Virus record (IMG/VR): IMGVR_UViG_3300034198_014586
Coordinates: 1 to 53,325 of that record
DNA from: a virus
Strand: one strand, 5' to 3'
DNA: 53,325 nt
Shown: positions 12,880 to 50,088 of the stretch, in pieces
How positions within the stretch are numbered: the stretch's first letter is position 1
How the letters are laid out: the number at the start of each line of letters is the position of its first letter
Notes under the pieces: generated by a model
Seen by the model: only the letters and a program-made list of their open reading frames with translations
Database searches by the model: none
Told to the model about the DNA's origin: nothing
Translations under genes and position numbers: made by a program

Positions 12880-13069
12880 GTATTGGATTGCCAGCGGTAT
12901 AGGTAATTGTTTTATCCCCCCACTTAATTACAGCTTTGTCATAGATATTGTTGTCATTTAATCTCAATTTTTCTTCTTCGTGTAGACAGAGTAAATTGGT
13001 CCAAAATCGATCCAATTTATAATTACCTTTCCATAGAGTTACTATGCAGTCTAAATCATTTATCGCCAT
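12863..13069 (-). CDS. Hypothetical 68-aa protein
   Basis: Small protein (MAINDLDCIVTLWKGNYKLD at the start), ATG at 13069. Its start overlaps the end of the next upstream gene by 10 bases and its stop overlaps the convergent carbamoyltransferase by 17 bases. No domain recognised; Trp/Lys-rich with a short IKWGDKTITY beta segment. Probably cotranslated with the preceding kinase-like gene. Confidence 0.5.
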   Translation of the reverse strand: MAINDLDCIVTLWKGNYKLDRFWTNLLCLHEEEKLRLNDNNIYDKAVIKWGDKTITYTAGNPIPTILP

Positions 13070-13722
13070 TGCTGTCTCGCTTGTTCTAATAAATGAAGTT
13101 TATCTATAGATTCAAATACAGGGTTATTTAGAACATATTGAAAATATTCTAATTGTATGTTGATAAAATCTGCCTTGGCTGAATTAAAGTTTATAATGTT
13201 AAAATAATAATATCCAACATCATTCTTTAATCTATTTTCAAATCCGACAAACGTATCTGGATAGAAGCATTGTAGTGTTGATAAAGATTTAATAAGGGTA
13301 GCTATTTCAATTATATATTGTTCTACGTAAGCATCATCAAATTTTTTATTAATAAAATATTCAGCTGTAAACGGAATACCTATTTGATCGTTGAGAGATT
13401 TATATAGCGTGTATTCTAAATTATCTTCTATTGCAGTTTCAATTGGTTCAACTATATTAACCCCATTTTTGTATAATTGTGTTATAGTATTAAAGTCGTG
13501 CTCAGTGGAATTCACTGATTTTAAATCGATCAACGTTGCAATAGTATTATCGTTATTATATGCAATAACCTTGTATTTTTTAATAACATATAGGCCCGAC
13601 TCGTCAATTTCATAAAACCCTACATTTCGGTCTCCCAGCGGTGCTATAGGAAGATATTGAGCATGCTCAATAAGTCTAGCGTGAGACCAAGATTTTATTT
13701 TAGATTTTAAAATATCGAGCAT
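13060..13722 (-). CDS. Unknown protein, weakly kinase-like
   Basis: 220 residues from the ATG at 13722; the frame is open further upstream but that would cross the divergent promoter region. The N-terminal part has a pattern like the small lobe of an aminoglycoside/choline-kinase-like fold: GLYVIKKYKVIAY (candidate Lys), HDFNTITQLYKNGVNIVEPI (candidate Glu helix). I do not see a clean HxDxxxxN catalytic loop, so this is a low-certainty idea. An AATAAATA box lies four bases before the ATG. Confidence 0.55.
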   Translation of the reverse strand: MLDILKSKIKSWSHARLIEHAQYLPIAPLGDRNVGFYEIDESGLYVIKKYKVIAYNNDNTIATLIDLKSVNSTEHDFNTITQLYKNGVNIVEPIETAIEDNLEYTLYKSLNDQIGIPFTAEYFINKKFDDAYVEQYIIEIATLIKSLSTLQCFYPDTFVGFENRLKNDVGYYYFNIINFNSAKADFINIQLEYFQYVLNNPVFESIDKLHLLEQARQQWR

Positions 13723-13726
13723 ATGG

Positions 13727-13772
13727 TATTTATTAATAGAAATTTTTGGTAAATTATATACGCAGTTAAATA
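13727..13772. promoter_or_regulatory. Divergent late-promoter boxes
   Basis: Minus: AATAAATA (13734-13727), four bases from the ATG at 13722. Plus: GTTAAATA (13765-13772, one base off), five bases from the ATG at 13778. The 5-base gap is the reason I choose ATG 13778 over ATG 13772 for the plus gene. No ribosome-binding sequence fits on either side. Confidence 0.5.
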
Positions 13773-13777
13773 TGTGT

Positions 13778-14746
13778 ATGAATATCCCGTGGCACGAAAT
13801 TAAACAGTTTGGACAACAAACAATGTTAGATACTGACCTGTTCAACATTAGTTGGATACTTGGTCGCTTTTGTAACTATAAATGCTCTTACTGTTGGCCG
13901 TATGCTCGTAGCGATAAACTAGACTATCAGAGTTTAGAAGTTTATAAAAAAACTATAGATAGTATTAAACATCAAGCAAGGGCAAACGGATATAATAAGT
14001 TTGCTTGGAGTTTTTCTGGTGGTGAGCCTACAGCATACAAGCAACTACCAGAATTAATTAAACATTTAGACGAACAAGATAGCACATATCAAAGCATACA
14101 TATGACTACTAATCTATCGCCGGGTAGTAAATGGTGGAAGGGTTGGTGTGGTGCTACAGAACTATTACAACGAAGAAGTATAACAGCAAGCTATCATGCA
14201 GAATTTGCCAGAGAACAAGAGTTTGGAGACAAGTGTCTACAACTCATGCGTGAAGGAGTACACGTAACTGTTAATCAGGTTATGGTGCCAGATCAGTTTG
14301 ACGAGTTGTATGCTCGTTGTGAAAGATTTAAAGCCAAGGGCATTAATGTAACGCTAAAGCCTCAAAGTAATGAAACAGCATCGGGCATTGTAGATGGTTA
14401 TACTGATGTGCAGGTTTCTACCTTGCGTACAGAGTTTGCCCAAACTGTCGAAGGAGAACCGTTGTATCAAGTTAGACTAACAGATGGTAATACCAATTAC
14501 TATGTTGATCAAGCAGAACGATTTAATGCTTTTGGTTTTAATCAGTTCAAGGACTGGACTTGCAATAGTGGCTATCAAAGTGTTATAATAAGAGGGGACG
14601 AAGTCAAGCGTGGATATAGTTGCCACGATATCCCATTAGGAACATTAACACAAGGATTTGATTTGTTTGCAGAACCAAAAATATGTGTTACACCTAGATG
14701 TGTAAGTTCAGCTGATTCAAAGGTCCCAAAGGTTAAAAATGGATAA
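13778..14746 (+). CDS. Radical SAM protein with C-terminal Cys cluster
   Basis: About 322 residues. The SAM-binding [4Fe-4S] motif is CNYKCSYC (about residues 32-39), followed by the GGEP motif in WSFSGGEPTAYKQL. The C-terminal third carries DWTCNSGYQSVII, YSCHDIP and CVTPRCVSS, a set of Cys consistent with an auxiliary cluster (twitch/SPASM-like). It resembles two other proteins of this window (21875-22780, 28293-29240) in having WxCNxG plus a late CxxxC. Radical SAM enzymes make a 5'-deoxyadenosyl radical; substrate unknown. Its stop overlaps the next SGNH gene by eight bases. Confidence 0.85.
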   Translation: MNIPWHEIKQFGQQTMLDTDLFNISWILGRFCNYKCSYCWPYARSDKLDYQSLEVYKKTIDSIKHQARANGYNKFAWSFSGGEPTAYKQLPELIKHLDEQDSTYQSIHMTTNLSPGSKWWKGWCGATELLQRRSITASYHAEFAREQEFGDKCLQLMREGVHVTVNQVMVPDQFDELYARCERFKAKGINVTLKPQSNETASGIVDGYTDVQVSTLRTEFAQTVEGEPLYQVRLTDGNTNYYVDQAERFNAFGFNQFKDWTCNSGYQSVIIRGDEVKRGYSCHDIPLGTLTQGFDLFAEPKICVTPRCVSSADSKVPKVKNG

Positions 14747-15485
14747 GCATTGTGATAATATATTAGATCTAATTGAAAAAAATATATTTCTTCCATCTGG
14801 TCATCTTGATGGAAATAAATTTGCGGCAACAGATAGTAAAGAATTATTTGAACGTAACCTTAAAAAACAGGCATTAGATTGGAGATATAGAACTAAAGAT
14901 ATAACATATACCTTAAATTCAAACGGATATAGGACCGACGAATTTGATTCAATTGATTGGGCCGAAGCAGTTGTTATATTTGGATGCTCGATAGTATTTG
15001 GAGTCGGAATCACTGACGATGAAACTATTAGTGCAACACTTAGTAAGATTCTTGATAGGCCGGTCATTAATATGGGAGTATGTGCTTCATCAGTTACGTT
15101 TGCCACGCATAATGCATTGATATTAAATCGAGGATACCCTACACCTAAAGCAGTTGTAAATATCTGGTCTTCAATTGATCGTAGTGTATTTTATAGTAAA
15201 GATTATGTGCGACATGCTGTGTTTGAACCTAACGAAGATAGTTTCTTTGCTCAATGGAATAAAAATGACTGTAACCCGCAAGTAAATGCGTTATTTTCTC
15301 AGATGACTAATAGAAATCTATGGAAAGATATTCCATATTACGAAGCGTCATTCTTTGAGCATACTGCTAATTGTCTTGACTGCGAATATATCCATTCAGT
15401 CGACGGCGGTCGTGATTTACAGCATCCAGGACATATTACAGCAAATATTGTTGCTCAAAAGATAGCCTACAAGTTAAAATTATGA
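14739..15485 (+). CDS. SGNH-hydrolase-like protein
   Basis: 248 residues. A GDS-like block I (VVIFGCSIVFGVGITDDETI, about residues 68-87) with Ser in GCS, then RPVINMGVCASSVTF and INGxx-like IWSSIDRSV. A C-terminal QHPGHITANIVAQKIA supplies the usual late His. SGNH proteins are esterases, deacetylases or acyl hydrolases, often acting on glycans. Directly downstream of, and overlapping, a radical SAM gene, a pairing seen four times here. Its stop overlaps the methyltransferase start (ATGA). No signal peptide, so probably cytoplasmic. Confidence 0.65.
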   Translation: MDKHCDNILDLIEKNIFLPSGHLDGNKFAATDSKELFERNLKKQALDWRYRTKDITYTLNSNGYRTDEFDSIDWAEAVVIFGCSIVFGVGITDDETISATLSKILDRPVINMGVCASSVTFATHNALILNRGYPTPKAVVNIWSSIDRSVFYSKDYVRHAVFEPNEDSFFAQWNKNDCNPQVNALFSQMTNRNLWKDIPYYEASFFEHTANCLDCEYIHSVDGGRDLQHPGHITANIVAQKIAYKLKL

Positions 15486-16087
15486 ATATTAATACAACTC
15501 ACCTACACTATTGGATGTGTGCCATCCGCGAAAGCAAAGATCCAATACGTACAATGGATGCTTTCTGGAAAGGACAGATTAGCAGTAAGGAATGGTTAAT
15601 AGAACAACTGCGACCGCATGTATTCTTAACTCCTGTCAGCATAGATATCCACGGTGGTTGGATAGGTACACTGGCCAGTATGCTATTTCAAAGCGGTATT
15701 CCTATTAAGAATATTCGTAGCGTTGATCTTGATCCAGACTGTCAAGCAACCGCTACTATGATGAACAAGCAAGAAGAGATTGCAGGCAAGTTTTGTGCTG
15801 TCACTGCTAACATGTGTGAGATTCGTAGTGATGCTGATATTGTTATTAATACCAGTTGCGAGCATATTACACAAGATGATTATGACCTATGGTTAAGCGG
15901 ATTACCACATAATAGTCTAATAGTACTACAAAGTAACAATTATGATATCCCTGAACATATTCGTACAGCAGATAGTTTAGAACATTTTAAAGAACAAAGC
16001 CAGTTAAATGTATTATGGGAAGGCGAGCTTGAGAATGATTTATATACACGCTATATGATTATTGGGTCAAAACTGACTAGTTTTTAA
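15482..16087 (+). CDS. SAM-dependent methyltransferase-like protein
   Basis: 201 residues. Class I Rossmann features: SIDIHGGWIGTLASMLF as the glycine-rich nucleotide loop (about residues 53-69), IRSVDLDPDCQATA as motif II with acidic Asp, ADIVINTSCEH as motif IV. This type is common in T4-like marine phages with unknown target. It ends the rSAM / SGNH / methyltransferase run and overlaps the convergent radical SAM gene by 21 bases. Confidence 0.65.
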   Translation: MNINTTHLHYWMCAIRESKDPIRTMDAFWKGQISSKEWLIEQLRPHVFLTPVSIDIHGGWIGTLASMLFQSGIPIKNIRSVDLDPDCQATATMMNKQEEIAGKFCAVTANMCEIRSDADIVINTSCEHITQDDYDLWLSGLPHNSLIVLQSNNYDIPEHIRTADSLEHFKEQSQLNVLWEGELENDLYTRYMIIGSKLTSF

Positions 16088-17143
16088 ATTATCAAATTCT
16101 GCTGGATCATTATATCTTCCATCAAAGGAAGAACAAGTACCAGCACACGTACCTAATCGCCCATTAGAATAGTCTTTAGTCCAGCTATTACTAATTCCAT
16201 TAAAAAAATCTCCTGATACAATACTATCCCAAGTTTTTAAATGTAGATTAGCATTTGGGCCACCAGAAGTTTCCCATAGTTCATCCCACCCGTCAGGAAA
16301 CTTTTTATTGTGTCTCACCCACAACCCAGCACCTAGATAACAACACGGCCATAGATGTCCTAGATAATCAATGTATGCGGCACGATCTTTTTGTGCATAA
16401 CAGGATACACAAGTATGTTCTGATTTTTTAAACCATTCAGTGATATCTAAAGGTTTTGGTTGCATAACTACTTTATGTATTTTAGTAACTTCACCCGGTG
16501 GCTGTATTAACACGCCTCCCTCGCCAAATCTTTGTACTCCCAATAATTCGTCAAGAAAAAATCTATGGCTAGGTTTAACTATAAATTGTTTAAACCCTAG
16601 TTCTTTTGCTAGATCTCTTGCTTCTTCAATCTGATGTTCATTGTGTTGAAAAACAATAAATTGCCAAGTAGCAGTTCCGCCCGCCTGAATAAATGCAGAA
16701 CAGTTTTCCATAACTTTACGCCAGTTAACGTTTATACGATAGATATGATTTGTATCTTCTAACCCGTCAATTGCAAATTGTACCGTGTCGTCTGGTCCTA
16801 GATTTCTTGCTAATTTAGCCCACCAGACAGCCCCTTTCATTCCGCCATTGGTGCTTACATTAATTTTAAATGTGCCTTTATTTCTTACCGATGTGCATAC
16901 TTCTAAAAAATTAGGTGCGGCGCATGGGTCTCCAATTGTTCCAGCAAATCTTATTAATTCTAAATCTTTGTATACATGGGCAGGAATTCGATCAAAAAAA
17001 TCGACTGTTAGGTAACTTTCCTTAAACCATGAATGATCATTTGGTATTAATTCTCTAACACATTGCGGGCAGGCAGCATTACATATTCCGCTATTTTCTA
17101 TTTCTATTTCTCTTATAGGGGTGGAATAAAATGCTACGCCCAT
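16067..17143 (-). CDS. Radical SAM / SPASM protein
   Basis: 358 residues. CNAACPQC at residues 21-28 binds the SAM cluster; FAIDGLEDTNHIYRINVNW in the centre is a block shared with the paralogue at 26284-27357. The C-terminal HTCVSCYAQKDRAAYIDYLG and PCCYLG followed by GTCAGTC look like SPASM auxiliary-cluster ligands. SPASM proteins often modify peptides or proteins (known family fact); the substrate here is unknown. The ATG overlaps the stop of the upstream gene by 10 bases. Confidence 0.87.
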   Translation of the reverse strand: MGVAFYSTPIREIEIENSGICNAACPQCVRELIPNDHSWFKESYLTVDFFDRIPAHVYKDLELIRFAGTIGDPCAAPNFLEVCTSVRNKGTFKINVSTNGGMKGAVWWAKLARNLGPDDTVQFAIDGLEDTNHIYRINVNWRKVMENCSAFIQAGGTATWQFIVFQHNEHQIEEARDLAKELGFKQFIVKPSHRFFLDELLGVQRFGEGGVLIQPPGEVTKIHKVVMQPKPLDITEWFKKSEHTCVSCYAQKDRAAYIDYLGHLWPCCYLGAGLWVRHNKKFPDGWDELWETSGGPNANLHLKTWDSIVSGDFFNGISNSWTKDYSNGRLGTCAGTCSSFDGRYNDPAEFDNLKTSQF

Positions 17144-17832
17144 ACATGCTCCTGAATAATATTATCTATTAGATCATTTGGGTAATTAGATCTAAAACTA
17201 TTAAATGCAACTACTTGCAAATCTTTAATAGGATATGGAGTATCTATGTTTAACCCAACCTTTTCTAATTCTATCTTCATTTTTTCTTGTCGACTGCTAC
17301 TGATTTGTTTAAGCATATCTCTGATGACGGCAGTTTCATTCATATCATAAGAATAGAACCAGTTAAATGGAATAAGTTCTCCATCTTTAACAGTCCAGCT
17401 ATTAGGATGTAGACTAATTTTTATTATATCAGCCGACCACATTTTTTTAATAAGAGTAGTCCATTGCTCTTGCCAGTTAGGCAATACCCGATCGTATCCT
17501 CCAGCTTTAATAGCCTGCATATAAAAGTCATCACCGTGCCATTCAAAGAACAATGTTCTTTTATCCTCGTCTATATCTTTCATTTTTAAAACAGGCATGC
17601 TATTGCTTGCCCGTTTCCAGAAATCAATTTCTCTATAGAAGCGACCTGTTAGTGAATCAGTATTCCATTGGGAGTTTTCTGTTAAGTTGGTATGATATCC
17701 TGGATCTCTATTAAAACTCATGCAGAATGTTTTACCATCTGGACTTATATAGGGAGTGTACACCAAGTTTGCTCGAACTTGCTCGTCCCCTTCTAAATTG
17801 TAATAATAATTCCATTTGGTGAGGTCTGTCAT
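17134..17832 (-). CDS. Unknown protein, possibly kinase-like
   Basis: 232 residues, Trp- and Tyr-rich. It contains RTLFFEWHGDDFYMQAI and, later, ISLHPNSWTVKDGELIPFNW followed by a YSYDMNE acid cluster. The HPNSWTV ... F(N)W ... D spacing recalls the catalytic/Mg loops of phosphotransferase-fold kinases (HxDxxxxN ... IDF), but the catalytic Asp is replaced, so an inactive or diverged kinase is only a suggestion. Cotranscribed with the SPASM radical SAM gene that it overlaps. Confidence 0.55.
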   Translation of the reverse strand: MTDLTKWNYYYNLEGDEQVRANLVYTPYISPDGKTFCMSFNRDPGYHTNLTENSQWNTDSLTGRFYREIDFWKRASNSMPVLKMKDIDEDKRTLFFEWHGDDFYMQAIKAGGYDRVLPNWQEQWTTLIKKMWSADIIKISLHPNSWTVKDGELIPFNWFYSYDMNETAVIRDMLKQISSSRQEKMKIELEKVGLNIDTPYPIKDLQVVAFNSFRSNYPNDLIDNIIQEHVWA

Positions 17833-17868: not shown

Positions 17869-18648
17869 ATGATACGTGGCATAAATTCTCAACCATACAT
17901 AAACTTAGATTCCTATATAGACCTCGAAGGGTTTAAAAAATTACATTATAAAATTTGTAAGGGACTAGTGTTGGCCCAATACAAGAAAGAAGGTAATATG
18001 GTTAAACCGGGAGGATGCAAAGCAGGCATGGAACAAGGTATTAAACCTTTGTTTCAGGCACTAGAAGAATATCACGCATTACCAGAGGATCATGATCTAC
18101 GTGTATTAGGCAGAGAGATTGGTGAGTACAGTAATAGAGATCAATTTATGCTGTTTCTTAAACTAAGCATGGGCGCATACGACCCTTATCAATTTGTGTT
18201 TCTTAAAACTGAAGACGGTGGATGGGAAAGTCGCTTTGATGAAAAAGCATGGACTCCCGATGCGACACTATTCCCAGAACTTAAGATTTGGTTGGAAAGT
18301 CTTGTGGGCACAGTATTTGAACACCTGGGTCGTATTATATTCTTTAAAGCAGAACATGACTGTTTAATGCCCTTACATAGAGATTTAATACTGCCCAATG
18401 AGCATGATTACTTTGATCATAGACACGAATTTATACACCTACGCACAAGTTTAGATAAACCTTTTTATATTTGGGATCCAGAAACTGACACAAAGATCTT
18501 AACAGAAAGTCATGCTACATTCTTTAACGATCAAGATTGGCATGCTGGCGGACGTACAAATAAACAAACATATAGCCTACGGGTTGACGGACCTTTTACA
18601 GAAGATTTTAGAAAAAAACTTGGCTTGTCACAAATCGTAGCATACTAA
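17869..18648 (+). CDS. Putative Fe(II)/2-oxoglutarate oxygenase
   Basis: 259 residues. A double-stranded beta-helix signature is visible: MPLHRDLILPNEHDYF with the HxD pair (about residues 167-170), TSLDKPFYIWDPETDTKIL, FFNDQDWHAGGRTNKQTYSL with the distal His and YSLRVDG with the 2OG-binding Arg. A second window protein (32741-33526) has the same order (HRD ... distal H ... GEF/GPFTEDFRKKLGL end). Such enzymes hydroxylate or otherwise oxidise substrates. Starts 36 bases from the divergent gene; the 3' end overlaps the convergent oxygenase by 21 bases. Confidence 0.7.
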   Translation: MIRGINSQPYINLDSYIDLEGFKKLHYKICKGLVLAQYKKEGNMVKPGGCKAGMEQGIKPLFQALEEYHALPEDHDLRVLGREIGEYSNRDQFMLFLKLSMGAYDPYQFVFLKTEDGGWESRFDEKAWTPDATLFPELKIWLESLVGTVFEHLGRIIFFKAEHDCLMPLHRDLILPNEHDYFDHRHEFIHLRTSLDKPFYIWDPETDTKILTESHATFFNDQDWHAGGRTNKQTYSLRVDGPFTEDFRKKLGLSQIVAY

Positions 18649-19149
18649 TTGAAAACTAATTTTAGGTTCATAACTGATATTCCCAGCACCGTGCCATGCG
18701 TAAGGATTAGTAAATTCATATATATCACCTGCTTTATACTGTGTAAGCATTTCGTCTTCATATATAAAAATATGTCCCGAAACATAATCTTGCATTGGAA
18801 TCCAGAAACGTCTAAAGTTCTTACTTTCAGTTTTAAATGCATCAACGTGCATAGGAAAGGTCATTGTGGGATTTATTTTTACAAACCACCACTCAATGGT
18901 TCCAGGCAGATCTATAGGCAAAACCATATCTAACATTGATGTCATTCCAAGGTCTCGGTAATAGTGCATACTCCACCCGGCCCCTTTAAGATCGTATCCT
19001 AAACTATACCATTTCTCAAATTGTTCTTTTTTATATGCTTCGTCTTCTTCGTCATTCCTTGGGCGTTGGTCCCCTTGTCCTTCTAAGACCATCTTAAGAT
19101 ATTCTTGATTGACCCAATTTTGTTTATTGCCGTGATAGATTACACTCAT
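18628..19149 (-). CDS. Putative Fe(II)/2OG oxygenase, AspH-like cupin
   Basis: 173 residues. TFPMHVDAFKTESKNFRRFW has the HxD pair, ending in a basic stretch; SGHIFIYEDEMLTQYKAGDI is the central beta sheet; TNPYAWHGAGNISYEPKISF has the distal His and a Lys in place of the common Arg for 2OG binding. This pattern is frequent in marine phages as '2OG-Fe(II) oxygenase'. A CATAAATA box lies five bases before the ATG. Confidence 0.7.
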   Translation of the reverse strand: MSVIYHGNKQNWVNQEYLKMVLEGQGDQRPRNDEEDEAYKKEQFEKWYSLGYDLKGAGWSMHYYRDLGMTSMLDMVLPIDLPGTIEWWFVKINPTMTFPMHVDAFKTESKNFRRFWIPMQDYVSGHIFIYEDEMLTQYKAGDIYEFTNPYAWHGAGNISYEPKISFQLVCYDL

Positions 19150-19154
19150 AAAAA

Positions 19155-19188: not shown

Positions 19189-19803
19189 ATGAATAAATTT
19201 TTAATTAGCACACCGGGTAGAACTGCCAGTAGTAGTCTTTTTAATTATATAAAAAACAGCCTTAAAGAAACAAGTGAAAACGTTGCGGCAATAGATCGCG
19301 GGCAATATTCTTCCAAAGAATGGGAAGACTTTAATAATGCCGAATATGCCGCATTTACTAATTTCAACCCATACCAAATGCCAAATATACTAAAAACTAT
19401 CAACCCTAAAGATTGGTGTTTAATAGTTTTATCTAGGAACGACCTAAGCAGTTGGTTATTAAGTATTAATGCCCTTAATGCAACAAACGAATGGCATCCG
19501 GGAAAGTCGTATACAGCTACTAACTTAACATTTGAAAAAGATGCTGTATTGTCTTCTTATTGGTATTATAAGAGCTGGCAACGATTAATTGCAGATCGAG
19601 CAGATGAGTTTGGGTTTGGAAAGGTAATTCGTATAGATTTTAACGAGATTATTAGTAGTTGGAGTAGTGTGGGCAAAAAAATTAACAACTGGACCTGGGA
19701 ATATGATTCTTCTAAAATGATGATGGGAATGACTACTTCGTGGTCTGCTGTAAAAAACGTAGATGAAGTAATAGAGTGGGTTCCGGAGAATATTCTTGAT
19801 TAA
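19189..19803 (+). CDS. Sulfotransferase-like protein
   Basis: 204 residues. The N-terminal KFLISTPGRTASSSLFNYI is a 5'-phosphosulfate-binding P-loop of sulfotransferases (TPGRTASSS), and LIVLSRNDLSSWLLS matches the 3'-phosphate-binding RxxxxxxxS region. The C-terminus is short, so the acceptor lid is reduced. It would move sulfate from PAPS to a glycan, lipid or protein. It overlaps the next radical SAM gene by eight bases. Confidence 0.7.
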   Translation: MNKFLISTPGRTASSSLFNYIKNSLKETSENVAAIDRGQYSSKEWEDFNNAEYAAFTNFNPYQMPNILKTINPKDWCLIVLSRNDLSSWLLSINALNATNEWHPGKSYTATNLTFEKDAVLSSYWYYKSWQRLIADRADEFGFGKVIRIDFNEIISSWSSVGKKINNWTWEYDSSKMMMGMTTSWSAVKNVDEVIEWVPENILD

Positions 19804-21223
19804 TAAAACATTCTGGTTACAACCAATTGACACACAATTGGGAGATTGGCAAAAACAAATTACAGACTTAACAAATAGTCCTAGTTTTTGTGTACTGCCT
19901 TGGATACATCTGGCGACTCGCCCTAATGGTGACATGCGTATATGCTGTGTTGCCAATGCGTCTGGTGCAGACAGTGGAGAATATGATGTAGGCCTTGTTA
20001 AGATGGAAGACGGTGAGCCTGCTAATTTTTCACACAATCTACCTACACAGGTATTTAACAATGACTATATGAAGTCAGTACGTAAGACTATGTTGGAGGG
20101 TAAAGTACCTGCCAGTTGTGTTAAATGCTTTAAAGAAGAAAAAAGAGGTATTGTTAGTAAACGTATCTGGGAAACAGGTACCTGGCATAAAAAAGAAAAC
20201 ATTGATATTCCAGAGTTAATTGCTCAAACAGCGGAAGATGGAAGTGTTCCTTATAAATTACAATACTTAGATCTACGGTTGGGACACACTTGTAATCTAA
20301 AATGTATTATGTGTAGTCCACATGATAGTAGTATGTGGGTTCCAGAACATAAAAAAGTATTCCCTATATTCAAGAGCTCGTTAATCAAAAAACAGATGGG
20401 CTGGGAAGCAGACAGTTTTAATAATAAATGGCATGAGAATCCAGCATTTTGGGAAGAAATATATGATCAGATTCCTAATATCAAACAACTGTATTTTGCC
20501 GGGGGCGAGCCGCTGTTAATTAAAGAACATAAAACTTTTCTTTTAGAAATTATTAAACGCGGCTATGCTGGACAGATTAGTTTGAGATACAATACTAACG
20601 GAGTATTAGTTAATGATGAAATTATTGAAATATGGAGTCAATTCTACAAAGTAAAAGTAGGTGTTAGTTTAGATGGCATAGGGCCTCGAGGGGAATATAT
20701 ACGCTATCCATTAGAGTGGAAACAGGTAGAGGCTAATCTAATAAAATTAGACAATGCTCCGGACAACATACAAACTAATATTGCTATGGCTGTGCAAATA
20801 CTAAACATCAAACATGTGCCAGAGTTTATTAAATGGAAAGTTGGCATGAACTTTAAGAAGATCAATATGGATAACAATGCCGCTGATCAAATAATGGGCG
20901 GCGGGCTTATCGGAGTTCATCTCTTATGGATTCCAACTTGGCTAAGTTTAAGAGTGTTACCTAAAAAAGATAAATTAGAAGTAAGAAGATTATTCGCCGA
21001 ACTTCAACGATGGCTATGGGACAATCATACCCAAGACTTAGAATTTTGGAAAAACAATCCGTATGGGTGGAAGCGTTGGGAAAGCATATTAGATTGGATG
21101 GATGCTGAAGATCATACTAACTTGTTGCCAGACTTTAGAGAATATATTAATACAATGGATACACAACGTCAAACTGACTTTAAGACTGTATTTCCTGAGA
21201 TTGCTCATCTATTGCAGTTTTAA
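19796..21223 (+). CDS. Radical SAM protein with N-terminal Cys (twitch) domain
   Basis: 475 residues. The N-terminal domain has SFCVLPWIHLATRPNGDMRI followed by CC (Cys50-51) and ASCVKCF (Cys108, 111), auxiliary-cluster-like. The radical SAM core starts at HTCNLKCIMC (Cys166, 170, 173), then FAGGEPLLIKEH and SLDGIG. This N-twitch layout is the 'twitch domain radical SAM' type that occurs in marine phages; three relatives are in this window. The start is TTG at 19796, supported by GGAG seven bases upstream and an eight-base overlap with the sulfotransferase gene. Function unknown. Confidence 0.85.
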   Translation: MINKTFWLQPIDTQLGDWQKQITDLTNSPSFCVLPWIHLATRPNGDMRICCVANASGADSGEYDVGLVKMEDGEPANFSHNLPTQVFNNDYMKSVRKTMLEGKVPASCVKCFKEEKRGIVSKRIWETGTWHKKENIDIPELIAQTAEDGSVPYKLQYLDLRLGHTCNLKCIMCSPHDSSMWVPEHKKVFPIFKSSLIKKQMGWEADSFNNKWHENPAFWEEIYDQIPNIKQLYFAGGEPLLIKEHKTFLLEIIKRGYAGQISLRYNTNGVLVNDEIIEIWSQFYKVKVGVSLDGIGPRGEYIRYPLEWKQVEANLIKLDNAPDNIQTNIAMAVQILNIKHVPEFIKWKVGMNFKKINMDNNAADQIMGGGLIGVHLLWIPTWLSLRVLPKKDKLEVRRLFAELQRWLWDNHTQDLEFWKNNPYGWKRWESILDWMDAEDHTNLLPDFREYINTMDTQRQTDFKTVFPEIAHLLQF

Positions 21224-25629: not shown

Positions 25630-25634
25630 TTTCT

Positions 25635-27357: not shown

Positions 27358-27394
27358 GGCGTTATAATGTATTAAATACTTTATCTATTTACTT

Positions 27395-30911: not shown

Positions 30912-30916
30912 ACCAA

Positions 30917-30950
30917 TATTTATTAACCCCTAACTACAGATTTATAAATA
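30917..30950. promoter_or_regulatory. Mirror-image divergent late promoters
   Basis: Minus: AATAAATA (30924-30917), TTGGT, ATG at 30911. Plus: TATAAATA (30943-30950), TTGGT, ATG at 30956. The whole of 30909-30923 is the inverted copy of 30944-30958, start codons included. No ribosome-binding sequence on either side. Confidence 0.65.
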
Positions 30951-30955
30951 TTGGT

Positions 30956-32000: not shown

Positions 32001-32004
32001 ACCG

Positions 32005-32024: not shown

Positions 32025-32050
32025 CCAAGATTACATTTTAAAGGAATAAT

Positions 32051-32734: not shown

Positions 32735-32740
32735 AATAAC

Positions 32741-34517: not shown

Positions 34518-34525
34518 TATTTATT
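34518..34525 (-). promoter_or_regulatory. Late promoter box AATAAATA of the fibre gene
   Basis: Exact NATAAATA on the minus strand, eight bases before the ATG at 34509 and overlapping the stop codon of the dehydrogenase gene. The fibre can thus be expressed apart from the long upstream run. Confidence 0.6.
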
Positions 34526-39859: not shown

Positions 39860-39887
39860 ATCTAATTATAAATGAATCAATCCTATT

Positions 39888-43092: not shown

Positions 43093-44032
43093 TTACCCAC
43101 CCCGATTGTCTAGCCAGATATTGCGACCAAAGTAAGTGACCGTATACGTTAGGATGATTGTTGTGTAATGGATTGTATTTTATAAATGCATTACATTTTT
43201 CGATCTTATCTAATTCGTTATTTAAAAATTCAAAATCAAATTGAATTGATTTTTTATAAAACAATTGCATAGTATCTAGCCAACCCATTGAATAAAACTG
43301 TGGCATTTCTATATCTTTGCCTACTATTTTTCCAGAGTATCTAATCCAAGAGGTGTCTACTATTTTAAAATTGTAATCTCTTTTAGGAGTATTAACACTA
43401 CAGAAATTTTTCCAAAGAACCGCATCAATAGGAAGTCCACTGTTTTTTATAATATTATTATATAGTTCAAAAAATATTTCATCATACGCTGTTAACCAAT
43501 CAACAAAAGTCATTGGAATTAAATCATCAGATCGACTGTATATTTTACTTAATGGGTGGCTACCTAATTTAATTCTAATTGCATCTTCCCTACCAGGTTC
43601 TGTCATTTGGATTGCGATATATATTTTTTTATATCCTAGATCTTTTACATATTCTAAAATACGTTGTAGTTCTTGAAACATATAAAAATTACAATTGCCA
43701 GGGACCGCATACTGATAAAAATCGCTATCTAAGGTTGTTGCTAATCGTGGACCAAATGAGTTTGTTAGTTGAGAAATTAAGTCATATTTTTGAATTGCTG
43801 TTGCAATATTAGGAAGAGTTTCTCCGTATGTCCAGCTTTCTCCAATGTTGATCAATAAGGTGTCTCTGCCCCGTTTTATAAAAATTTCGCTATATTTTGC
43901 ATGATGCTCGATCCAGTCAGGTTTTAAATTATTGTCGTTTAATAAAACTTCGGAGGCGCCGGATATTATGCTCAAATTGCCTAGAGATTGGCGGATGTTG
44001 TCAATTGGAAAATTATACATTTGAGCAGTCAT
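43082..44032 (-). CDS. SGNH-like protein, GES type
   Basis: 316 residues from the ATG at 44032; ATG at 44020 is an alternative and the frame beyond 44032 overlaps the radical SAM gene too far. LLINIGESWTYGETLPNIAT has GES in place of GDS, YAVPGNCNFYMFQELQRIL the Asn block, KIYIAIQMTEPGRED block III, and NNHPNVYGHLLWSQYLA the late His. A larger SGNH than the other four. It overlaps the radical SAM gene upstream (20 bases) and downstream (11 bases). Confidence 0.62.
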   Translation of the reverse strand: MTAQMYNFPIDNIRQSLGNLSIISGASEVLLNDNNLKPDWIEHHAKYSEIFIKRGRDTLLINIGESWTYGETLPNIATAIQKYDLISQLTNSFGPRLATTLDSDFYQYAVPGNCNFYMFQELQRILEYVKDLGYKKIYIAIQMTEPGREDAIRIKLGSHPLSKIYSRSDDLIPMTFVDWLTAYDEIFFELYNNIIKNSGLPIDAVLWKNFCSVNTPKRDYNFKIVDTSWIRYSGKIVGKDIEMPQFYSMGWLDTMQLFYKKSIQFDFEFLNNELDKIEKCNAFIKYNPLHNNHPNVYGHLLWSQYLARQSGWVNDI

Positions 44033-45377
44033 TATAAAAATCTGTGAGAAGGGGAAATGTCTTGATAAAATCTGTATTTCTGCGACGATCGTATTCTGTA
44101 AACCAATTGTAAAAGTCTCGGCGGCCCTCTTGTAATCGCATATTATCGTATGTAGTTGCTTCCATATAATCAACTACCCTACGGAACTTTTCGTATTCAA
44201 TATCGCTAAACTTTGTGCGATCCGTGTCATCTAAATTGGCTTCAATGAATGCTAAGTGCTGTTTCATGTAGGGCATAAACGTATCTTTGGGCAGTATGTT
44301 CATGTCGTATTGTAGGGGTTCTTTAAGGAAAGGAGTATCAAAGCGAATACGTTGCCATTTGTTTTGGTCAGTACCGTTATACTTGCCTCGCCATTCTAAT
44401 ATCTTTTCTAACAGACTTTGAAAATTTGTCACAGATAGAATACTAAATGTAATCATAAAAGTTATAGGCAAACTGGTCTTGGTTAGATAGGTGTCCAAGT
44501 TACGTTCCCATACTGTTATGTCCAATCCTGTGCGTATGTACTCTGCGGGCTTGCCCCAAGTATCTATGCTGGTGAATATCTTAAAGTCTTTGATAGCACC
44601 TTTGGCTATTAGATTGTTTACTTTTTCTACAAGACGATCAACAAGGATAGGTTTAACTCCAAAATTAGTGTTGATGTTGAGTTCTAAATTAGGCAAGGGG
44701 TTAGATTCTAAATCTTCTAACAGTCGCCAGGTTGATTGCTGTAGCAATGGCTCTCCGCCTGTAATGCGTAGGATAGTTAGAGTCTTGCGTACTTTAGGCC
44801 ACCAAGACCACCAAGCATCAACATAAGGATTTGATTCTTCTTCGTATGTAGTAAACCAATCAATGTCGTTGCGATGATTCTTAACCATTGTGTAAGGACC
44901 GTGGTCTTTTATTTCTTTGTAGTAGGCAGAACTATGTTTAGGATGGCAGTAGCCGCATTTGAAATTACATTCATTGCCAAAAGATATTTCTATATATTGC
45001 GGATTAACAGGCATTAGCGGCGATGCTTTAATAGCTTCAAAACGAGCAGGAGTGTAGATGCTGGCATTGCGTTCTTTACGATCACTTACATAGTCTTCAC
45101 CCATGGCTTCAATGTTCCAACAGTAATTACATCCTGCGGGTTTTTCGCCTACAATCATAGCTTGCCGTTCAGAGATCTTTTGTTTAGTATTGTGTAAGGC
45201 ACTAGGATCTACCGCTATTTCCGATAAAGGAATCTTATGTGGGCTAGGATGATAACAGCTATGAGTTTCACCTGTTTGTAGATAGATAGTCGTGTGATGC
45301 CATTTGGCCATGCAGAACGTAGGGCTAATTTCTGCCATTATGGGTATGAATTTTTTAATACGAGCTAAATCGTCCAA
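44013..45377 (-). CDS. Radical SAM protein with N-terminal twitch domain
   Basis: 454 residues. N-terminal PTFCMAKWHHTTIYLQTGE, SCYHPS, then GCNYCW; radical SAM core GNECNFKCGYCHPKHSS; LRITGGEPLLQQSTWRLL; FTSIDTWGKPAEYIRTG. The TTG at 45377 has AAAGG six bases upstream; the ATG at 45338 is the alternative start. First gene of the long minus-strand run that ends at the fibre gene. A 39-bp repeat copy lies just upstream. Confidence 0.85.
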   Translation of the reverse strand: MDDLARIKKFIPIMAEISPTFCMAKWHHTTIYLQTGETHSCYHPSPHKIPLSEIAVDPSALHNTKQKISERQAMIVGEKPAGCNYCWNIEAMGEDYVSDRKERNASIYTPARFEAIKASPLMPVNPQYIEISFGNECNFKCGYCHPKHSSAYYKEIKDHGPYTMVKNHRNDIDWFTTYEEESNPYVDAWWSWWPKVRKTLTILRITGGEPLLQQSTWRLLEDLESNPLPNLELNINTNFGVKPILVDRLVEKVNNLIAKGAIKDFKIFTSIDTWGKPAEYIRTGLDITVWERNLDTYLTKTSLPITFMITFSILSVTNFQSLLEKILEWRGKYNGTDQNKWQRIRFDTPFLKEPLQYDMNILPKDTFMPYMKQHLAFIEANLDDTDRTKFSDIEYEKFRRVVDYMEATTYDNMRLQEGRRDFYNWFTEYDRRRNTDFIKTFPLLTDFYNDCSNV

Positions 45378-45799: not shown

Positions 45800-46927
45800 C
45801 TATAATTTATAAAATTTACTATTTGTAGCCAAAAACCCTTTGGCAATATTACCATCTCGTAAGTAGGTATTATCTATTTTATGAGATAGATAGTTTAAGG
45901 TTTCTAAATAATTGTTTTTTGCTTTATCAGATGCAGTGTCCCAAAACCACTGATCCATTGGACGTACTATATCAGTACTGGGTTTTTCAGTTTGAAATTG
46001 TGGTTGATAAACATTTGGGTATATAATTGGGCTCATCATTTGCCTATATTCACCAACGTGCATTTTTAGAGATTGTGCCCACACATCTTTTGCAATTGGA
46101 TTAACTTCGCATATTTTTTTAATTTCTTGCGCTTGCTTAATTACTATTTCTGGTAAATCTGGAGTCCAGTAAAAGAATTCAGTTTGATATCTATTGTAAA
46201 ATATCTCTTGATAGTTTAAATCTACTGGAGGTGCATGCATTGCCGATAAATCTGAAAAATATGCGTAGTAATCGGTACCATCAAAATATACCAAAGGTTT
46301 ATCAACTCCTAATATTTGACAGGCTGTTTTTCCTGAATAACAAATATCAATTATGTGATTTTCTTTAAGTTGTGATGCTTGTCGTCCAAGTCCGGCAATA
46401 TTAAAGTTAGTACCAAACGGATTAGTTTCAAACCAATCATCTTGGCTTAAAAGTTCAACAACTGGTTTTGAAAAATCCTGTGTTCTAATCTTTGTTTTAG
46501 GATTTATCTTATTTTTTATATGATTTAAATAAGGAATAGCCACAGCATCAATTTCTCCGTAGGCATTTCTACTACTTGTATCGTAATTGTTAAAGTTTTT
46601 TCTATCAAGTTCCGGTAACTGCATAACAATTTCATCTAATAAAATGTTGTTATCAATAAAGGCGTGTAGTATATTATTACTGTCAACTCCGCCACTGTAG
46701 TATAATACCAAATGGTCGTACTGATCTCTTAATTGCTGTGCCCGTATTCTGTACAATTCTGTCAACGAAGTTTCAATTAGTATGGTCCAATCAAACTTGC
46801 TGTAAACTGTATCGTTAAATAACCAGTTAAACTCATAGCCGGTTTTTTTAGATTCTATTAATGCCAAAGACTTATTAACAAATGTTTTCCAACCTACCTG
46901 ATAAAACCCTAATTTGTAGTCTTTCAT
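45800..46927 (-). CDS. Asparagine-synthetase-like PP-loop protein
   Basis: 375 residues. The PP-loop HLVLYYSGGVDSNNILHAF (about 73-91) is of the N-type ATP-pyrophosphatase kind. No N-terminal glutaminase with Cys2, so ammonia or another amine must be supplied otherwise. Long C-terminal part rich in Tyr/Asn/Pro. Such enzymes adenylate a carboxylate or amide and attach nitrogen. It overlaps a sulfotransferase-like gene by four bases. Not close to the QueC-like protein at 24022-24750. Confidence 0.65.
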   Translation of the reverse strand: MKDYKLGFYQVGWKTFVNKSLALIESKKTGYEFNWLFNDTVYSKFDWTILIETSLTELYRIRAQQLRDQYDHLVLYYSGGVDSNNILHAFIDNNILLDEIVMQLPELDRKNFNNYDTSSRNAYGEIDAVAIPYLNHIKNKINPKTKIRTQDFSKPVVELLSQDDWFETNPFGTNFNIAGLGRQASQLKENHIIDICYSGKTACQILGVDKPLVYFDGTDYYAYFSDLSAMHAPPVDLNYQEIFYNRYQTEFFYWTPDLPEIVIKQAQEIKKICEVNPIAKDVWAQSLKMHVGEYRQMMSPIIYPNVYQPQFQTEKPSTDIVRPMDQWFWDTASDKAKNNYLETLNYLSHKIDNTYLRDGNIAKGFLATNSKFYKL

Positions 46928-47592
46928 TCTTCAATCCAAAAGTTTTTATTAACAGCATCTTTCCATTCGGTTATCATGGGCAATACTTCTTTGTTTTCTA
47001 AAAGGGCAAAATAGTTGATATTGTTAGGTTCTAACTCTGTATCAAAATCATTTACAGCAAAATCAGTAGATAGGCCGTGTTCTAAAGATTCATATTCGTA
47101 GTTGTATATATTTGTCTTACAGACGTTTTTAATATAGTCAGTTAGAATTTTAAAAACTACATATCCTCTACTGAGATAATAGACTTTATTTTTTAATAAG
47201 GTATATGCCCGCTGATCTATTGTTTGACCTTTTTTTCTATGCCACGACGATTGATCAGCTGGATTCATATATGCGTAGCTGAGAATAGCATCAACAAAAT
47301 TTACTCTGGTTAGAAATACTATCTTATCAAATTTATTATAATTAATTTGTTTGTAGTATTCTGAAATCTCTTTACGTGTTAGATCAATGAAATCATTTCC
47401 ATTTATCTTAACACATATATTTTCTTCAGTGTTAATTTTATCAATAAGAATATTGTATTCACTAAAATTTTGGTTAGCTATTCTAGATAACGTTAATGTA
47501 TCTACAACCTCCGTTAGACCATATTTTTTAGCTAACACTTTACAGGCAAATGTGCTTTTACTTCTTGGAGTATAAACTATAAGTATATTCAT
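46924..47592 (-). CDS. Sulfotransferase-like P-loop protein
   Basis: 222 residues. NILIVYTPRSKSTFACKVL has the PSB-loop (TPRSKST) at the N-terminus; KIVFLTRVNFVDAILSYAYM matches the 3'-PB motif (LxR ... S). A C-terminal lid with WHRKKGQ may grip the acceptor. Likely PAPS-dependent sulfation, on an acceptor that cannot be told. No signal peptide. Confidence 0.68.
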   Translation of the reverse strand: MNILIVYTPRSKSTFACKVLAKKYGLTEVVDTLTLSRIANQNFSEYNILIDKINTEENICVKINGNDFIDLTRKEISEYYKQINYNKFDKIVFLTRVNFVDAILSYAYMNPADQSSWHRKKGQTIDQRAYTLLKNKVYYLSRGYVVFKILTDYIKNVCKTNIYNYEYESLEHGLSTDFAVNDFDTELEPNNINYFALLENKEVLPMITEWKDAVNKNFWIEE

Positions 47593-47617
47593 TGCTTTTT
47601 AAACTTGTCATTCATAT

Positions 47618-48235
47618 CTAATATAGTAAATTGTTGTATGTCTCTGAGACTGCTTTTTTTATTTCATTAATATTATTAGGCATGTGGGTTTTAACATAAC
47701 GTAAATTAGGAATATATCCCAGTGATTCATACGTAATAACTTCATCATAATCATAGTCCAAATTATGTAATAAAAAATTATTTTGAGTTATGGCAAAAGC
47801 AGAACCTGCAATATGACCATTATCTACATCTAATATGTAATCTTCAGTTTTTTCCCCAAATTCTGTCCACCACTTTTTCCTCATTTTTCCAATGTAATGA
47901 CTAACAATACTGTCAATTTCATTTTCTCGATATAATTTTATTTTAAAGGAATCACTTTTTAATAATATGTCATATGGTGTGCATTTGCTAATTTGCTCGG
48001 GCATAAGTTTAAGAACATACCTATTATCACCGCTATGATAGTGGTCATAAAAGTTTTGTTTCATTCCATTTACGTGCGGTCCATAATTACTGTTTCGATC
48101 TACGGATCGTTGCCACGGCTCTAAATAATATGGTACATTATGTGTTTCTGCTAAGTGTGTGGCATAAACTGTTGATCCAGTTCTGTAGTTTGCAACAATA
48201 ATTGCAGGCCAGCGAGTAATTTTAATATCTTTCAT
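47618..48235 (-). CDS. Sulfotransferase-like protein
   Basis: 205 residues. AIIVANYRTGSTVYATHLAE is the P-loop (NYRTGST); LYRENEIDSIVSHYIGKMRK takes the 3'-PB position. Closest in layout to bacterial Stf0/sulfotransferase families. Second of three consecutive sulfotransferase-like genes; spacing of eight bases to the upstream gene. Confidence 0.7.
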   Translation of the reverse strand: MKDIKITRWPAIIVANYRTGSTVYATHLAETHNVPYYLEPWQRSVDRNSNYGPHVNGMKQNFYDHYHSGDNRYVLKLMPEQISKCTPYDILLKSDSFKIKLYRENEIDSIVSHYIGKMRKKWWTEFGEKTEDYILDVDNGHIAGSAFAITQNNFLLHNLDYDYDEVITYESLGYIPNLRYVKTHMPNNINEIKKAVSETYNNLLY

Positions 48236-48243
48236 TATATATT

Positions 48244-48891
48244 TTAAAAAATGTAACTAAATCTCTTTATGTCTTCGGCAAATATTTCACCTATGATGTT
48301 TCTAGTTTCGTCAGTATAATACTCACGATACTCTGGTAGTGCTTCGTCTAGTACTAATGGTTCGTTGGTACAAAAGTAATCTTGAATTGGTTTAAAATCT
48401 TCAATAATGTTTTCTGCCCTTAATATGTATGTAACTTCTCTGTGTTCTCCGTTTGCGTCATATTCTACCCAACGAACCTGTGGAGTAATTGGAGTAAACC
48501 AATAATTAGTCTTTTGGTCCATTGTTGGTAGTTGACGAACAAAAGATTCAAAGCTATCAAGATTTAAATTAAAAAGATCAATAAGTTTTTTATTTTTATC
48601 TATTTTATTTTGATCATCTAAATTATTTAGAGTTTCTATAATTTTCAAATAGCTAAATTTTGCCCGTAACCAGGGATTCATTACGATTGCAAATGTATTA
48701 ACTCCCGGATATAACTCGTCAAGTTCTTGTAACCCTAATCGGTTTACTTCAATATCAGTATCTCTAATAAACCTGAATGCCGCAGTTGGTACTTGTTTCA
48801 TCCATTGGAAAATTGGATACATGCCGTAACCAGTTCCGGCCACAGCTACATAGGATAAAAAGGCGTCATCATTTTTATAGGTTACGGTCAT
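48244..48891 (-). CDS. Sulfotransferase-like protein with degenerate P-loop
   Basis: 215 residues. The C-terminal EYREYYTDETRNIIGEIFAE, ending DIKRFSY, is the typical end of the sulfotransferase family 2 fold. FAIVMNPWLRAKFSYLKII replaces the R..S region, and the N-terminal VAGTGYGMYP is a weak P-loop without the usual Lys/Arg. It may have changed cosubstrate or be inactive. Three bases after the glycosyltransferase stop. Confidence 0.6.
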   Translation of the reverse strand: MTVTYKNDDAFLSYVAVAGTGYGMYPIFQWMKQVPTAAFRFIRDTDIEVNRLGLQELDELYPGVNTFAIVMNPWLRAKFSYLKIIETLNNLDDQNKIDKNKKLIDLFNLNLDSFESFVRQLPTMDQKTNYWFTPITPQVRWVEYDANGEHREVTYILRAENIIEDFKPIQDYFCTNEPLVLDEALPEYREYYTDETRNIIGEIFAEDIKRFSYIF

Positions 48892-48894
48892 ATG

Positions 48895-50088
48895 TCATTC
48901 ATTAAGCAAATTGCTAATAGCTGTCATTTTTTGTTCAGCCCTATCTGCATAAAAATTATACATGTTATTTTTTACAAAGTCAACATTTTTAATAAAACGA
49001 TGCTGGTTGTCTAGCCATAGTTGCTTGATCATTTGATTGTTAGTCAGCAGTTCCTGATTGTCAACAAGTGCTCGATACATTCTATCAATAGGGTTTTCTA
49101 TTGTATCATATGAGTGATCAACTATGTCATCAAACATGTCTAAACCCATATCTCGTAAAAAACCAACTGCACCTTTGCTTGATAACAGTATTGGGAAAGA
49201 GCATCCATATATCGAATTCAATGTTTTTTCTGTTAGGTTAAATGCTGCCTCTGTGTAAGATGTTTCAGAAATTATCTCTACAAAAGTATTTTGATAGTAT
49301 GCAGATAGTTTTTTTGTAAAATTATATACATTGTTGTTAGGGTCAGTATCTGGGTATATCTGGTTATCATCGTTAATTAGTAACTTTGCATTTTTTAATA
49401 AATCAAATCCATTATCTAACAGTTGTTTAATTGATTGTTGTTCTGGAGTAAATTGCCAATTAGTATAACCAAATAAATTTTCTAATTCATCTTGGAATAT
49501 ACATGATATTAATCCATGATCCTGAAGACCCAGTCCGTATTGCATACAAACAGACATTGCTCTATGACTTCGCTTGCCGCGGTTTAGGCTAAGGAAATTA
49601 ACAGTACTATCTAAGTTTTTTTCTAGGATAGGATCAATTGCTCGATACTCCTGTTGTTGATTGGTAATGTCGCCTCCCCAAGGAACAATGTGCAAATTTT
49701 TATTAGTTAAATATGTGTCAAGATTTTCTAGAGAAGTAAGTAATACAAATTGTTTATTGCTATAATAATCAAAGAGATCCCCGAAGTAGGTCATTAAATT
49801 GGCTTGTTTTTCAACCCAAGGGTTGAAATTCCCAGCAGTTAAATGATCTTTAAGACCAATCACTACAATGTCTTGTTTAATATCATCTAATACTAGTTGC
49901 CGATATTTGAACTCAGTTTCTTGGTTCCAATCGTCGTTGGGTCTAGGTGATCTCCATCCTTGATATGTAGGGTCAAATACATGTGACCACATGTATAAGC
50001 AACTCTTTGGTTTTTTAATTTTACCAGATAGTTTGAAGAATAATTTATATGTGAAGGTGTCGCCAGGCGGCCGTATTAAAATACTCAT
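48895..50088 (-). CDS. Glycosyltransferase-like protein, GT-B type
   Basis: 397 residues. EIISETSYTEAAFNLTEKTL, CSFPILLSSKGAVGFLRDMG and FDDIVDHSYDTIENPIDRMY match the C-terminal block of 38681-39859 and 40643-41914. NFLSLNRGKRSHRAMSVCMQ parallels LNLNRRWRLHRPFL in 38681-39859. First gene of the repeat-bracketed run, about five bases after the right repeat copy. Confidence 0.65.
   Translation of the reverse strand: MSILIRPPGDTFTYKLFFKLSGKIKKPKSCLYMWSHVFDPTYQGWRSPRPNDDWNQETEFKYRQLVLDDIKQDIVVIGLKDHLTAGNFNPWVEKQANLMTYFGDLFDYYSNKQFVLLTSLENLDTYLTNKNLHIVPWGGDITNQQQEYRAIDPILEKNLDSTVNFLSLNRGKRSHRAMSVCMQYGLGLQDHGLISCIFQDELENLFGYTNWQFTPEQQSIKQLLDNGFDLLKNAKLLINDDNQIYPDTDPNNNVYNFTKKLSAYYQNTFVEIISETSYTEAAFNLTEKTLNSIYGCSFPILLSSKGAVGFLRDMGLDMFDDIVDHSYDTIENPIDRMYRALVDNQELLTNNQMIKQLWLDNQHRFIKNVDFVKNNMYNFYADRAEQKMTAISNLLNE

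Follow-up and report, generated by a model that had tools for sequence, protein, structure and literature searches.

What holds together the radical S-adenosylmethionine (SAM) enzymes, oxygenases and other enzyme genes that crowd one viral DNA fragment, and what do they modify? The fragment, IMG/VR virus record IMGVR_UViG_3300034198_014586, is 53,325 bases long (the whole of it is called the window; genes are numbered g1 to g66), and the original prediction made from its sequence took the stretch from 13,060 to 50,088 for an uncharacterized phage modification battery built as operons. Here, we compared the gene content of this island with that of related phages and of bacterial genomes. A fixed core of genes was found to continue a run of tail genes and to be followed by exchangeable enzyme modules. 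We tentatively put forward, as a possible rather than a probable reading, that radical SAM and iron/2-oxoglutarate-dependent (Fe/2OG) enzymes functionalize the phage's own tail-tip proteins, that the modules vary the chemistry of the adhesin and not its sequence, and that predatory Bdellovibrionota carry a homologous system.

A tail-linked core heads the island

The core was mapped by scans with g17 and g55 together with profile annotation of the loci. Nearly every relative showed the same order: tail fibre gene(s), g12 in one or two copies, g13, g14, g15, sometimes g16, g17, g18 and g55, followed by variable modules. All six genes g12-g13-g14-g15-g17-g18 stood in this order before g55 in 24 of the 27 non-redundant loci with enough upstream sequence, and a fibre gene lay farther upstream in 17 of the 20 loci with more than 9 kb. 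The core is the last part of a tail/baseplate gene run and is co-directed with the tail genes; in two large relatives it is preceded by the baseplate wedge gene gp6 (phrog_10646), an open reading frame (ORF) of 5,300-6,300 amino acids (aa), a protein of about 205 aa and fibre genes, after which g12 follows. In the window, module A and further cassettes have come to stand between g18 and g55, and g55 is inverted at the head of module B. The modification system starts at about 6.1 kb, at g12, and the predicted boundary of 13,060 is too late, excluding the core genes g12-g18.

PA5oct-like Pseudomonas jumbo phages (Arenbergviridae) have a homologous tail-tip run. In PA5oct, the ~205-aa protein, the fibres and g12 all have homologues in the same order, and EST35_0123-0126 are marked ESI-MS/MS (electrospray ionization tandem mass spectrometry) in the record, i.e. 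the fibres and the g12 homologue were detected in the virion. The match between g12 and the virion protein EST35_0123 scored 116.8 bits, and homology and synteny together identify g12, at the level of sequence, as a virion tail protein. It was the most divergent member of the core run (mean identity 40.6% vs 55-75% for its neighbors, 51 loci), as expected of a host-contact protein. The AlphaFold2 model of g12 (predicted local distance difference test, pLDDT, 84.8) matched only three uncharacterized phage proteins in Foldseek, and a search of its fold against the PDB gave no significant match. The tail-fibre gene named in the original prediction, g46, matched no family; g12, which lies outside the predicted range, is the better-supported tail protein. 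For g17, the AlphaFold2 model (pLDDT 93) predicts a GT-A fold, the best Foldseek matches being the SunS/ThuS S-glycosyltransferases and other GT-A enzymes (E ~1e-4, low template modeling score). The real start of g14 may lie within its overlap with g13.

Exchangeable modules follow the core

Scans with g33 and g49 returned 80 loci each, onto which the window proteins were mapped. The loci were chosen via these anchors, and the counts describe the anchor neighborhoods rather than all phages; they refer to loci with full flanks, i.e. 40 around g33 (module A) and 44 around g49 (module B). Around g33, g30, g32 and g36 were present in all 40 loci, the g37 family in 39, g24 in 37, g22 in 34, g27 in 33, g28 and g35 in 30 each, g34 in 25 and g26 in 24. 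Around g49, g53 was found in 32 loci, g55 in 26, g47 in 25 and g51 in 22, with the conserved order g54-g53-g52-g51-g50-g49. Module A combines three types of radical SAM enzyme with Fe/2OG, PP-loop, pyridoxal phosphate (PLP) and methyltransferase-like enzymes, and module B a B12-type and N-twitch radical SAM enzymes with SGNH-like proteins and a UDP-sugar dehydrogenase. The two neighborhoods hardly mix (g49 was never near g33, nor g33 near g49), and in relatives the modules are exchangeable behind the core, while the g57-g61 cassette was rare among the relatives fetched. Downstream gene content shows a weak correlation with the divergence of g12 (partial r 0.24 when controlled for g55, p=0.0005; 0.12 when controlled for all core genes, p=0.012).

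Related phages thus share a core and module cores; random gain and loss of single genes without a core was not seen, and with these parts conserved, random turnover fails as an explanation. The view of the island as a coherent, non-random modification system is borne out by the conserved core and modules and by the recurrence of the module A core on bacterial chromosomes (see below). Its predicted build as operons holds in part: overlaps of 1-20 bp join 14 of 26 same-strand neighbor pairs, yet the strand changes 14 times among 41 genes. The guanine-cytosine (GC) content is lower in the island (0.357) than in the flanks (0.431 and 0.455). Several convergent gene pairs share 20-24 bp at their 3' ends (16067-16087, 18628-18648, 26284-26303, 29832-29855 and 31497-31516), perhaps a footprint of cassette insertion.

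Radical SAM enzymes and their companions

Ten radical SAM genes lie between 13.8 and 45.4 kb (ten matches in the record, seven of them above the Pfam cut-off), all with an intact CX3CX2C motif. Four are N-twitch enzymes (g30, g33, g53 and g55) that passed the 170-bit cut-off of NF033640 (N_Twi_rSAM; scores in Table 1). Two have a SPASM-type C-terminus, recognized by Pfam SPASM in g37 and by its cysteine pattern in g25, three are short with invariant additional C-terminal cysteines (g22, g32 and g39), and g49 is of the B12 type. The predicted radical SAM battery in four layouts is thereby confirmed. The short enzymes were also considered as prokaryotic viperins (pVips) and this was rejected: g22 scored 38.7 bits against an NCBIfam cut-off of 180, the PADLOC matches of g22, g32 and g39 extend over no more than roughly the first 100 residues, and the C-terminal cysteines are extra to that family. 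Against TIGR03975, a model for ribosomally synthesized and post-translationally modified peptides (RiPPs), g49 reached 109.9 bits, below the cut-off of 281.85.

Among about seven Fe/2OG oxygenases, g41 (TauD) and g44 (Asp_Arg_Hydrox) exceeded the Pfam cut-off, which secures the prediction of this class for these two; g36 was sub-threshold, and g27, g28, g42 and g45 were called Fe/2OG-like from HxD...H motifs. The PP-loop assignment of g34 comes from an SGGADS motif and a weak, sub-threshold TilS_N match. The remaining predicted classes stand in kind, their motifs being present, but for the PLP, SGNH, sulfotransferase and most glycosyltransferase assignments neither Pfam nor PHROG gave a match. 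Profiles of the PP-loop, PLP, GNAT-like g40, g17/g18 and g24 proteins gave no useful match against PDB sequences. Well supported are the UDP-sugar dehydrogenase and, in the flank, a NodU-like carbamoyltransferase, IscU and two A-type carriers; homologues of g8 and g11 also occur in three relatives (G003, G013 and G023). In a simple hydropathy scan, no membrane segment or signal peptide was predicted for the island enzymes, which places their chemistry in the cytoplasm.

Two further genes were observed. By eye, the catalytic-loop and DFG aspartates of g26 are replaced, and its kinase-lobe match is weak, which suggests a pseudokinase-like protein or a different transferase. In g7 (3074-3913), an APS_kinase-like P-loop kinase domain is joined to a nucleotidyltransferase-like part; its function may be NadR-like or related to 3'-phosphoadenosine-5'-phosphosulfate.

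Table 1. Genes of the island and its flank in the window, with their assignments.
Gene(s)	Position	Strand	Assignment	Evidence
g5, g11; g8	2543..6099		Iron-sulfur (Fe-S) supply: A-type carriers (g5, g11); IscU/NifU_N (g8)	Pfam Fe-S_biosyn, NifU_N; phrog_8429
g12	6127..7011	+	Tail-tip (virion) protein, fast-evolving, candidate substrate	Homology to PA5oct EST35_0123
g13	7070..7420	+	Small conserved soluble protein, 116 aa	Between g12 and g14 in 24/27 loci
g14, g15	7327..9082	+	Glycosyltransferase-like pair	Motif only, no Pfam match; position conserved
g17, g18	9645..11337	+	Glycosyltransferase-like pair	g17 modeled GT-A fold
g19	11401..12879	+	NodU/Nol-like carbamoyltransferase	phrog_1601 E=1e-94; Pfam Carbam_trans_N/C
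g22	13772..14746	+	Short radical SAM, C-terminal Cys, module A core	Pfam
g24	15482..16087	+	Methyltransferase-like, module A core	Alignment; 38% identical to Bdellovibrionota proteins
g25	16067..17143	-	Radical SAM, SPASM-type C-terminal cysteines, paralogue of g37	Pfam Radical_SAM; NCBIfam sub-threshold
g26	17134..17832	-	Kinase-lobe-like	Profile vs protein kinase TTK, E ~1e-4
g27 (+), g28 (-)	17869..19149	+/-	Fe/2OG oxygenase-like	HxD...H conserved in g28 alignment, motif in g27
g29	19189..19803	+	Sulfotransferase-like	Motif only; no Pfam or PHROG match
g30	19796..21223	+	N-twitch radical SAM, module A core	NF033640 396 bits
g32	21875..22831	-	Short radical SAM	Pfam
g33	22773..24140	-	N-twitch radical SAM, module A anchor	NF033640 328 bits; 113 IMG/VR relatives
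g34	24022..24750	-	PP-loop ATPase-like	SGGADS invariant in alignment; TilS_N E=1.7e-5, sub-threshold
g35	24737..25594	-	PLP-enzyme-like	Invariant S-x-SKG in alignment; Bdellovibrionota relative weakly Aminotran_1_2
g36	25635..26303	+	Asp_Arg_Hydrox-like Fe/2OG oxygenase	Pfam E=0.0013, sub-threshold
g37 (-), g38 (+), g39 (+)	within 26284..29240	-/+/+	SPASM radical SAM; PLP-like; short radical SAM	Pfam
g38	27395-28300	+	PLP-like, paralogue of g35
g41, g42, g44, g45	29832..33526		TauD oxygenase (g41); Asp_Arg_Hydrox (g44); Fe/2OG-like (g42, g45)	Pfam (g41, g44); motif (g42, g45)
g47	34524..35753	-	UDP-glucose/GDP-mannose dehydrogenase, module B	Pfam 62 bits
g49	36547..38688	-	B12-binding radical SAM, module B anchor	Pfam; 177 IMG/VR relatives
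g50, g51, g52	38681..41914	-	Glycosyltransferase-like (g50, g52), SGNH-like (g51), module B	Function by motif
g53	41911..43092	-	N-twitch radical SAM, module B	NF033640 387 bits
g55	44013..45377	-	N-twitch radical SAM, last tail-linked core gene	NF033640 320 bits; at least 454 IMG/VR relatives
g57-g61	45800..50088	-	PP-loop-like (g57), sulfotransferase-like (g58-g60), glycosyltransferase-like (g61)	Motifs only

Phage identity and late-type promoters

The relatives reach 335-364 kb. The T4-type major capsid protein gp23 was found in 7 of 27 related records, and four large contigs all encode homologues of gp17, gp18 and UvsW, some also gp20 and gp21 and one a homologue of the sigma factor gp55; judged by these genes, the relatives are T4-superfamily jumbo phages. 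The tail sheath family PF04984 had no match in the relatives, a result that means little, as tblastn with gp18 of HTVC008M did match. The window covers only the island plus little flank, hence its lack of T4 structural markers, and we infer from the relatives that it belongs to the T4 superfamily as well. Among isolate phages, megablast with the window DNA gave no match; in searches of 50,697 isolate records g49, g55, the window g12 and a g14 homologue had none either.

ATAAATA matches the core of the T4 late promoter. In the cluster, 7 of 24 gene heads have it within the preceding 70 bp vs 0.57% of random 70-mers, and in four relatives it precedes 16-32% of gene heads vs 0.6-1.3% of random 70-mers. 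From this enrichment we infer late expression of the island. In the window and in four relatives (G003, G013, G019 and G023) the motif tends to lie at one of two distances from the start codon, roughly -34 to -23 or roughly -14 to -10; the nearer position would yield leaderless late transcripts. In the window the nearer class was seen at g28 (19150-19161), g36 (25623-25634) and g41 and g42 (30912-30955), all four Fe/2OG oxygenase-like genes. The divergent genes g41 and g42 are separated by an inverted repeat (30912-30955), ACCAATATTTAT...ATAAATATTGGT, which carries one late-type motif in each orientation.

A homologous cluster on Bdellovibrionota chromosomes

When genomes were scanned with the N-twitch profile, the matches were mostly Bdellovibrionota: in one Bdellovibrionota order 30 of 99 genomes had the family above its cut-off, and none of 14 controls did. 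At ten loci a g30 homologue (45-52% identity) has g22 as a neighbor; most of these loci also have g37, and many have g24 or g17/g18, the genes being adjacent in the layout g30-g22-g37-(g24)-(g17/g18). The g22 orthologue is about 50% identical in nine Bdellovibrionota genomes, and the g22 scan gave nine loci only. These genomes had no gp23 match, and the loci that were read have chromosomal neighbors. At one Halobacteriovoraceae locus there are PP-loop, Asp_Arg_Hydrox-like, PLP-like and GT2 genes as well, so that the majority of the module A enzyme classes is represented there. The g30 proteins of phages and those of bacteria fall into separate clades with good support, so that the sharing between phage and bacterium is old and a recent transfer is unsupported.

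Two observations stand apart from this cluster. In a Bdellovibrionales metagenome-assembled genome (contig of 139,884 bases, L261:9983-21301) the run g12-g13-g14-g15-g17, followed by N-twitch genes, lies beside pheT-/trmD-like genes, and is either a phage transfer or an assembly chimera. In some Bdellovibrionota genomes, N-twitch radical SAM genes are densely arrayed (G031, with 50 candidates at first look; loci L226 and L227).

Discussion

The kind of island described here has precedents. Pelagimyophages have a 45-kb host recognition cluster with radical SAM cassettes, described as non-syntenic and bordered by VrlC and the neck gene gp14 (PMC7029224), and the isolate Mosig EXVC030M, a Pelagibacter phage, shows such an island. 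Common to the clusters of pelagimyophages and cyanomyophages and to the present island are T4-type phages, a 30-45 kb island by baseplate and tail-fibre genes, and genes for glycosyltransferases, Asp_Arg_Hydrox, TauD, carbamoyltransferase, aminotransferase, methyltransferase and MoaA-like radical SAM enzymes on both strands. Relatives with the same genes are T4-type (gp23 in seven records; gp17, gp18 and gp20), and tail fibres, glycosyltransferases (g17 by its predicted fold) and accessory enzymes occur together. The fixed core g12-g18-g55, the two conserved modules and the dominance of N-twitch and B12 radical SAM enzymes set the present island apart from these clusters, and its content is not freely shuffled: the core order is kept, and only the part downstream varies. 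No tblastn match to the VrlC and gp14 borders was found in the relatives, where gp6 and the giant ORF precede the island. By analogy, the island is in the place where pelagimyophages keep their host recognition cluster. A T4-like ocean genome, TARA_ERS488813_N000010, has 12 radical SAM genes and an A-type carrier (PMC5332604); it resembles the present case in that a single T4-like phage combines numerous radical SAM genes with genes for Fe-S assembly. The Campylobacter phages CP220, CPt10 and F379 carry 11-12 radical SAM genes with an exchangeable radical SAM cassette (PMC2853527); their SPASM-type enzymes are only about 23% identical, no N-twitch core is seen there, and the cassette has an amidinotransferase instead. 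The PA5oct-like phages differ in having no enzyme battery after g12, and the Bdellovibrionota cluster, with homologous adjacent enzymes, in its chromosomal setting, the usual lack of g12 and its old, separate clade. The island is thus uncharacterized in function but not in kind (PMC5332604, PMC7029224, PMC2853527). No description of a fixed tail-linked N-twitch core, of the module structure or of the Bdellovibrionota cluster was found in the open-access literature; radical SAM-rich islands of T4-like phages are known, and the fixed tail-linked core, the modular logic and the homologue in predatory bacteria appear to be new.

As to the target, the enzymes most likely modify either the tail tip or the surface of the host; of the two we favor, at about even odds, a late-expressed, cytoplasmic modification of tail-tip proteins. 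Late in the infection, the core enzymes would act in the cytoplasm of the host and transfer a glycan-like group to tail-tip proteins, be it g12, the neighboring fibres or both, the modules would functionalize C-H bonds and cap the attached group with hydroxyl, methyl, carbamoyl and possibly sulfate groups, and the phage-encoded IscU and A-type carriers would help to load the many 4Fe-4S enzymes; a module swap would then alter tail-tip chemistry and hence adsorption or evasion. This proposal is based on the gene order, the co-direction with tail genes, the soluble enzymes, the lack of a flippase and the weak tendency of modules to follow g12. The Wzx-type flippase PF01943 was absent from 15 records (13 of 14 controls were positive), which may be fragments. 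Several points weigh against it. The window has no capsid or tail-sheath gene, so that phage identity rests on relatives with the same genes; PA5oct-like phages hold the tail genes without the enzymes; and module content is tracked better by g18 than by g12. The g17 model resembles peptide S-glycosyltransferases only weakly, and sugars, lipids or host proteins are equally possible targets of the enzymes. In Bdellovibrionota the module A core occurs without g12 (present in 1 of 57 genomes) and hence needs no g12 itself; g12 as the universal substrate of this core was rejected on its absence from the other 56.

Remodeling of the host surface, in which lipopolysaccharide or capsule precursors (UDP-sugars, lipid-linked or core glycans) are altered so that released or competing phages cannot adsorb (superinfection exclusion), is a serious rival, though in our estimate somewhat unlikely. 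It has been proposed by the authors for the equivalent pelagimyophage island (PMC7029224), the carbamoyltransferase, UDP-sugar dehydrogenase and glycosyltransferase-like genes would suit it, and at the Bdellovibrionota locus L248 GT2 enzymes and a membrane glycosyltransferase-like protein adjoin the module A core; the island itself, however, has no predicted membrane protein or signal peptide and the 15 records no flippase, and late-type promoters coupled to tail-tip genes would probably leave little time for a surface change. A RiPP-like or small-molecule product, i.e. a diffusible peptide or metabolite made during infection, is improbable. The sub-cut-off resemblance of the B12-type enzyme to RiPP C-methyltransferases, the SPASM/twitch radical SAM enzymes and the Asp/Asn-hydroxylase-like enzymes point towards it, but the small ORFs g20 and g56 are unmatched in relatives and g62 has few matches, no exporter was seen, and the conserved g13 (116 aa) is tied to g12. 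Of the original alternative between a natural-product and a glycan-maturation pathway there remains a coherent modification system; a natural-product pathway is not needed to account for it, and a conserved precursor peptide was not noticed, no search aimed at one having been made. Decoration of phage DNA bases by the Fe/2OG, PLP, radical SAM and glycosyltransferase enzymes is very improbable: the same classes act in known phage base-modification pathways and thymidylate-synthase-family genes occur in 5 of 15 related records, yet the enzymes are coupled to tail genes and a related core sits on bacterial chromosomes; no TET/JBP match was found in 15 records, with the controls silent as well. 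We assign an equally slight probability to accretion, a hypervariable landing zone gathering unrelated enzyme genes without joint function, to which the fourteen strand switches, low GC, cassette swapping and many paralogues would be congenial; against it, the core and module cores are conserved and the module A core stays together in Bdellovibrionota.

Should the tail tip indeed be what the enzymes modify, chemistry as well as sequence would serve phages to diversify host recognition, and a family of unassigned radical enzymes, the N-twitch radical SAM proteins with at least 454 viral relatives of g55, would have a substrate open to testing. Through the Bdellovibrionota homologue the system could be approached in bacteria instead of in uncultured phages. 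Even with a host-surface target, the fixed core and the modules make of a 'hypervariable island' a definite set of genes whose working as one pathway can be tested.

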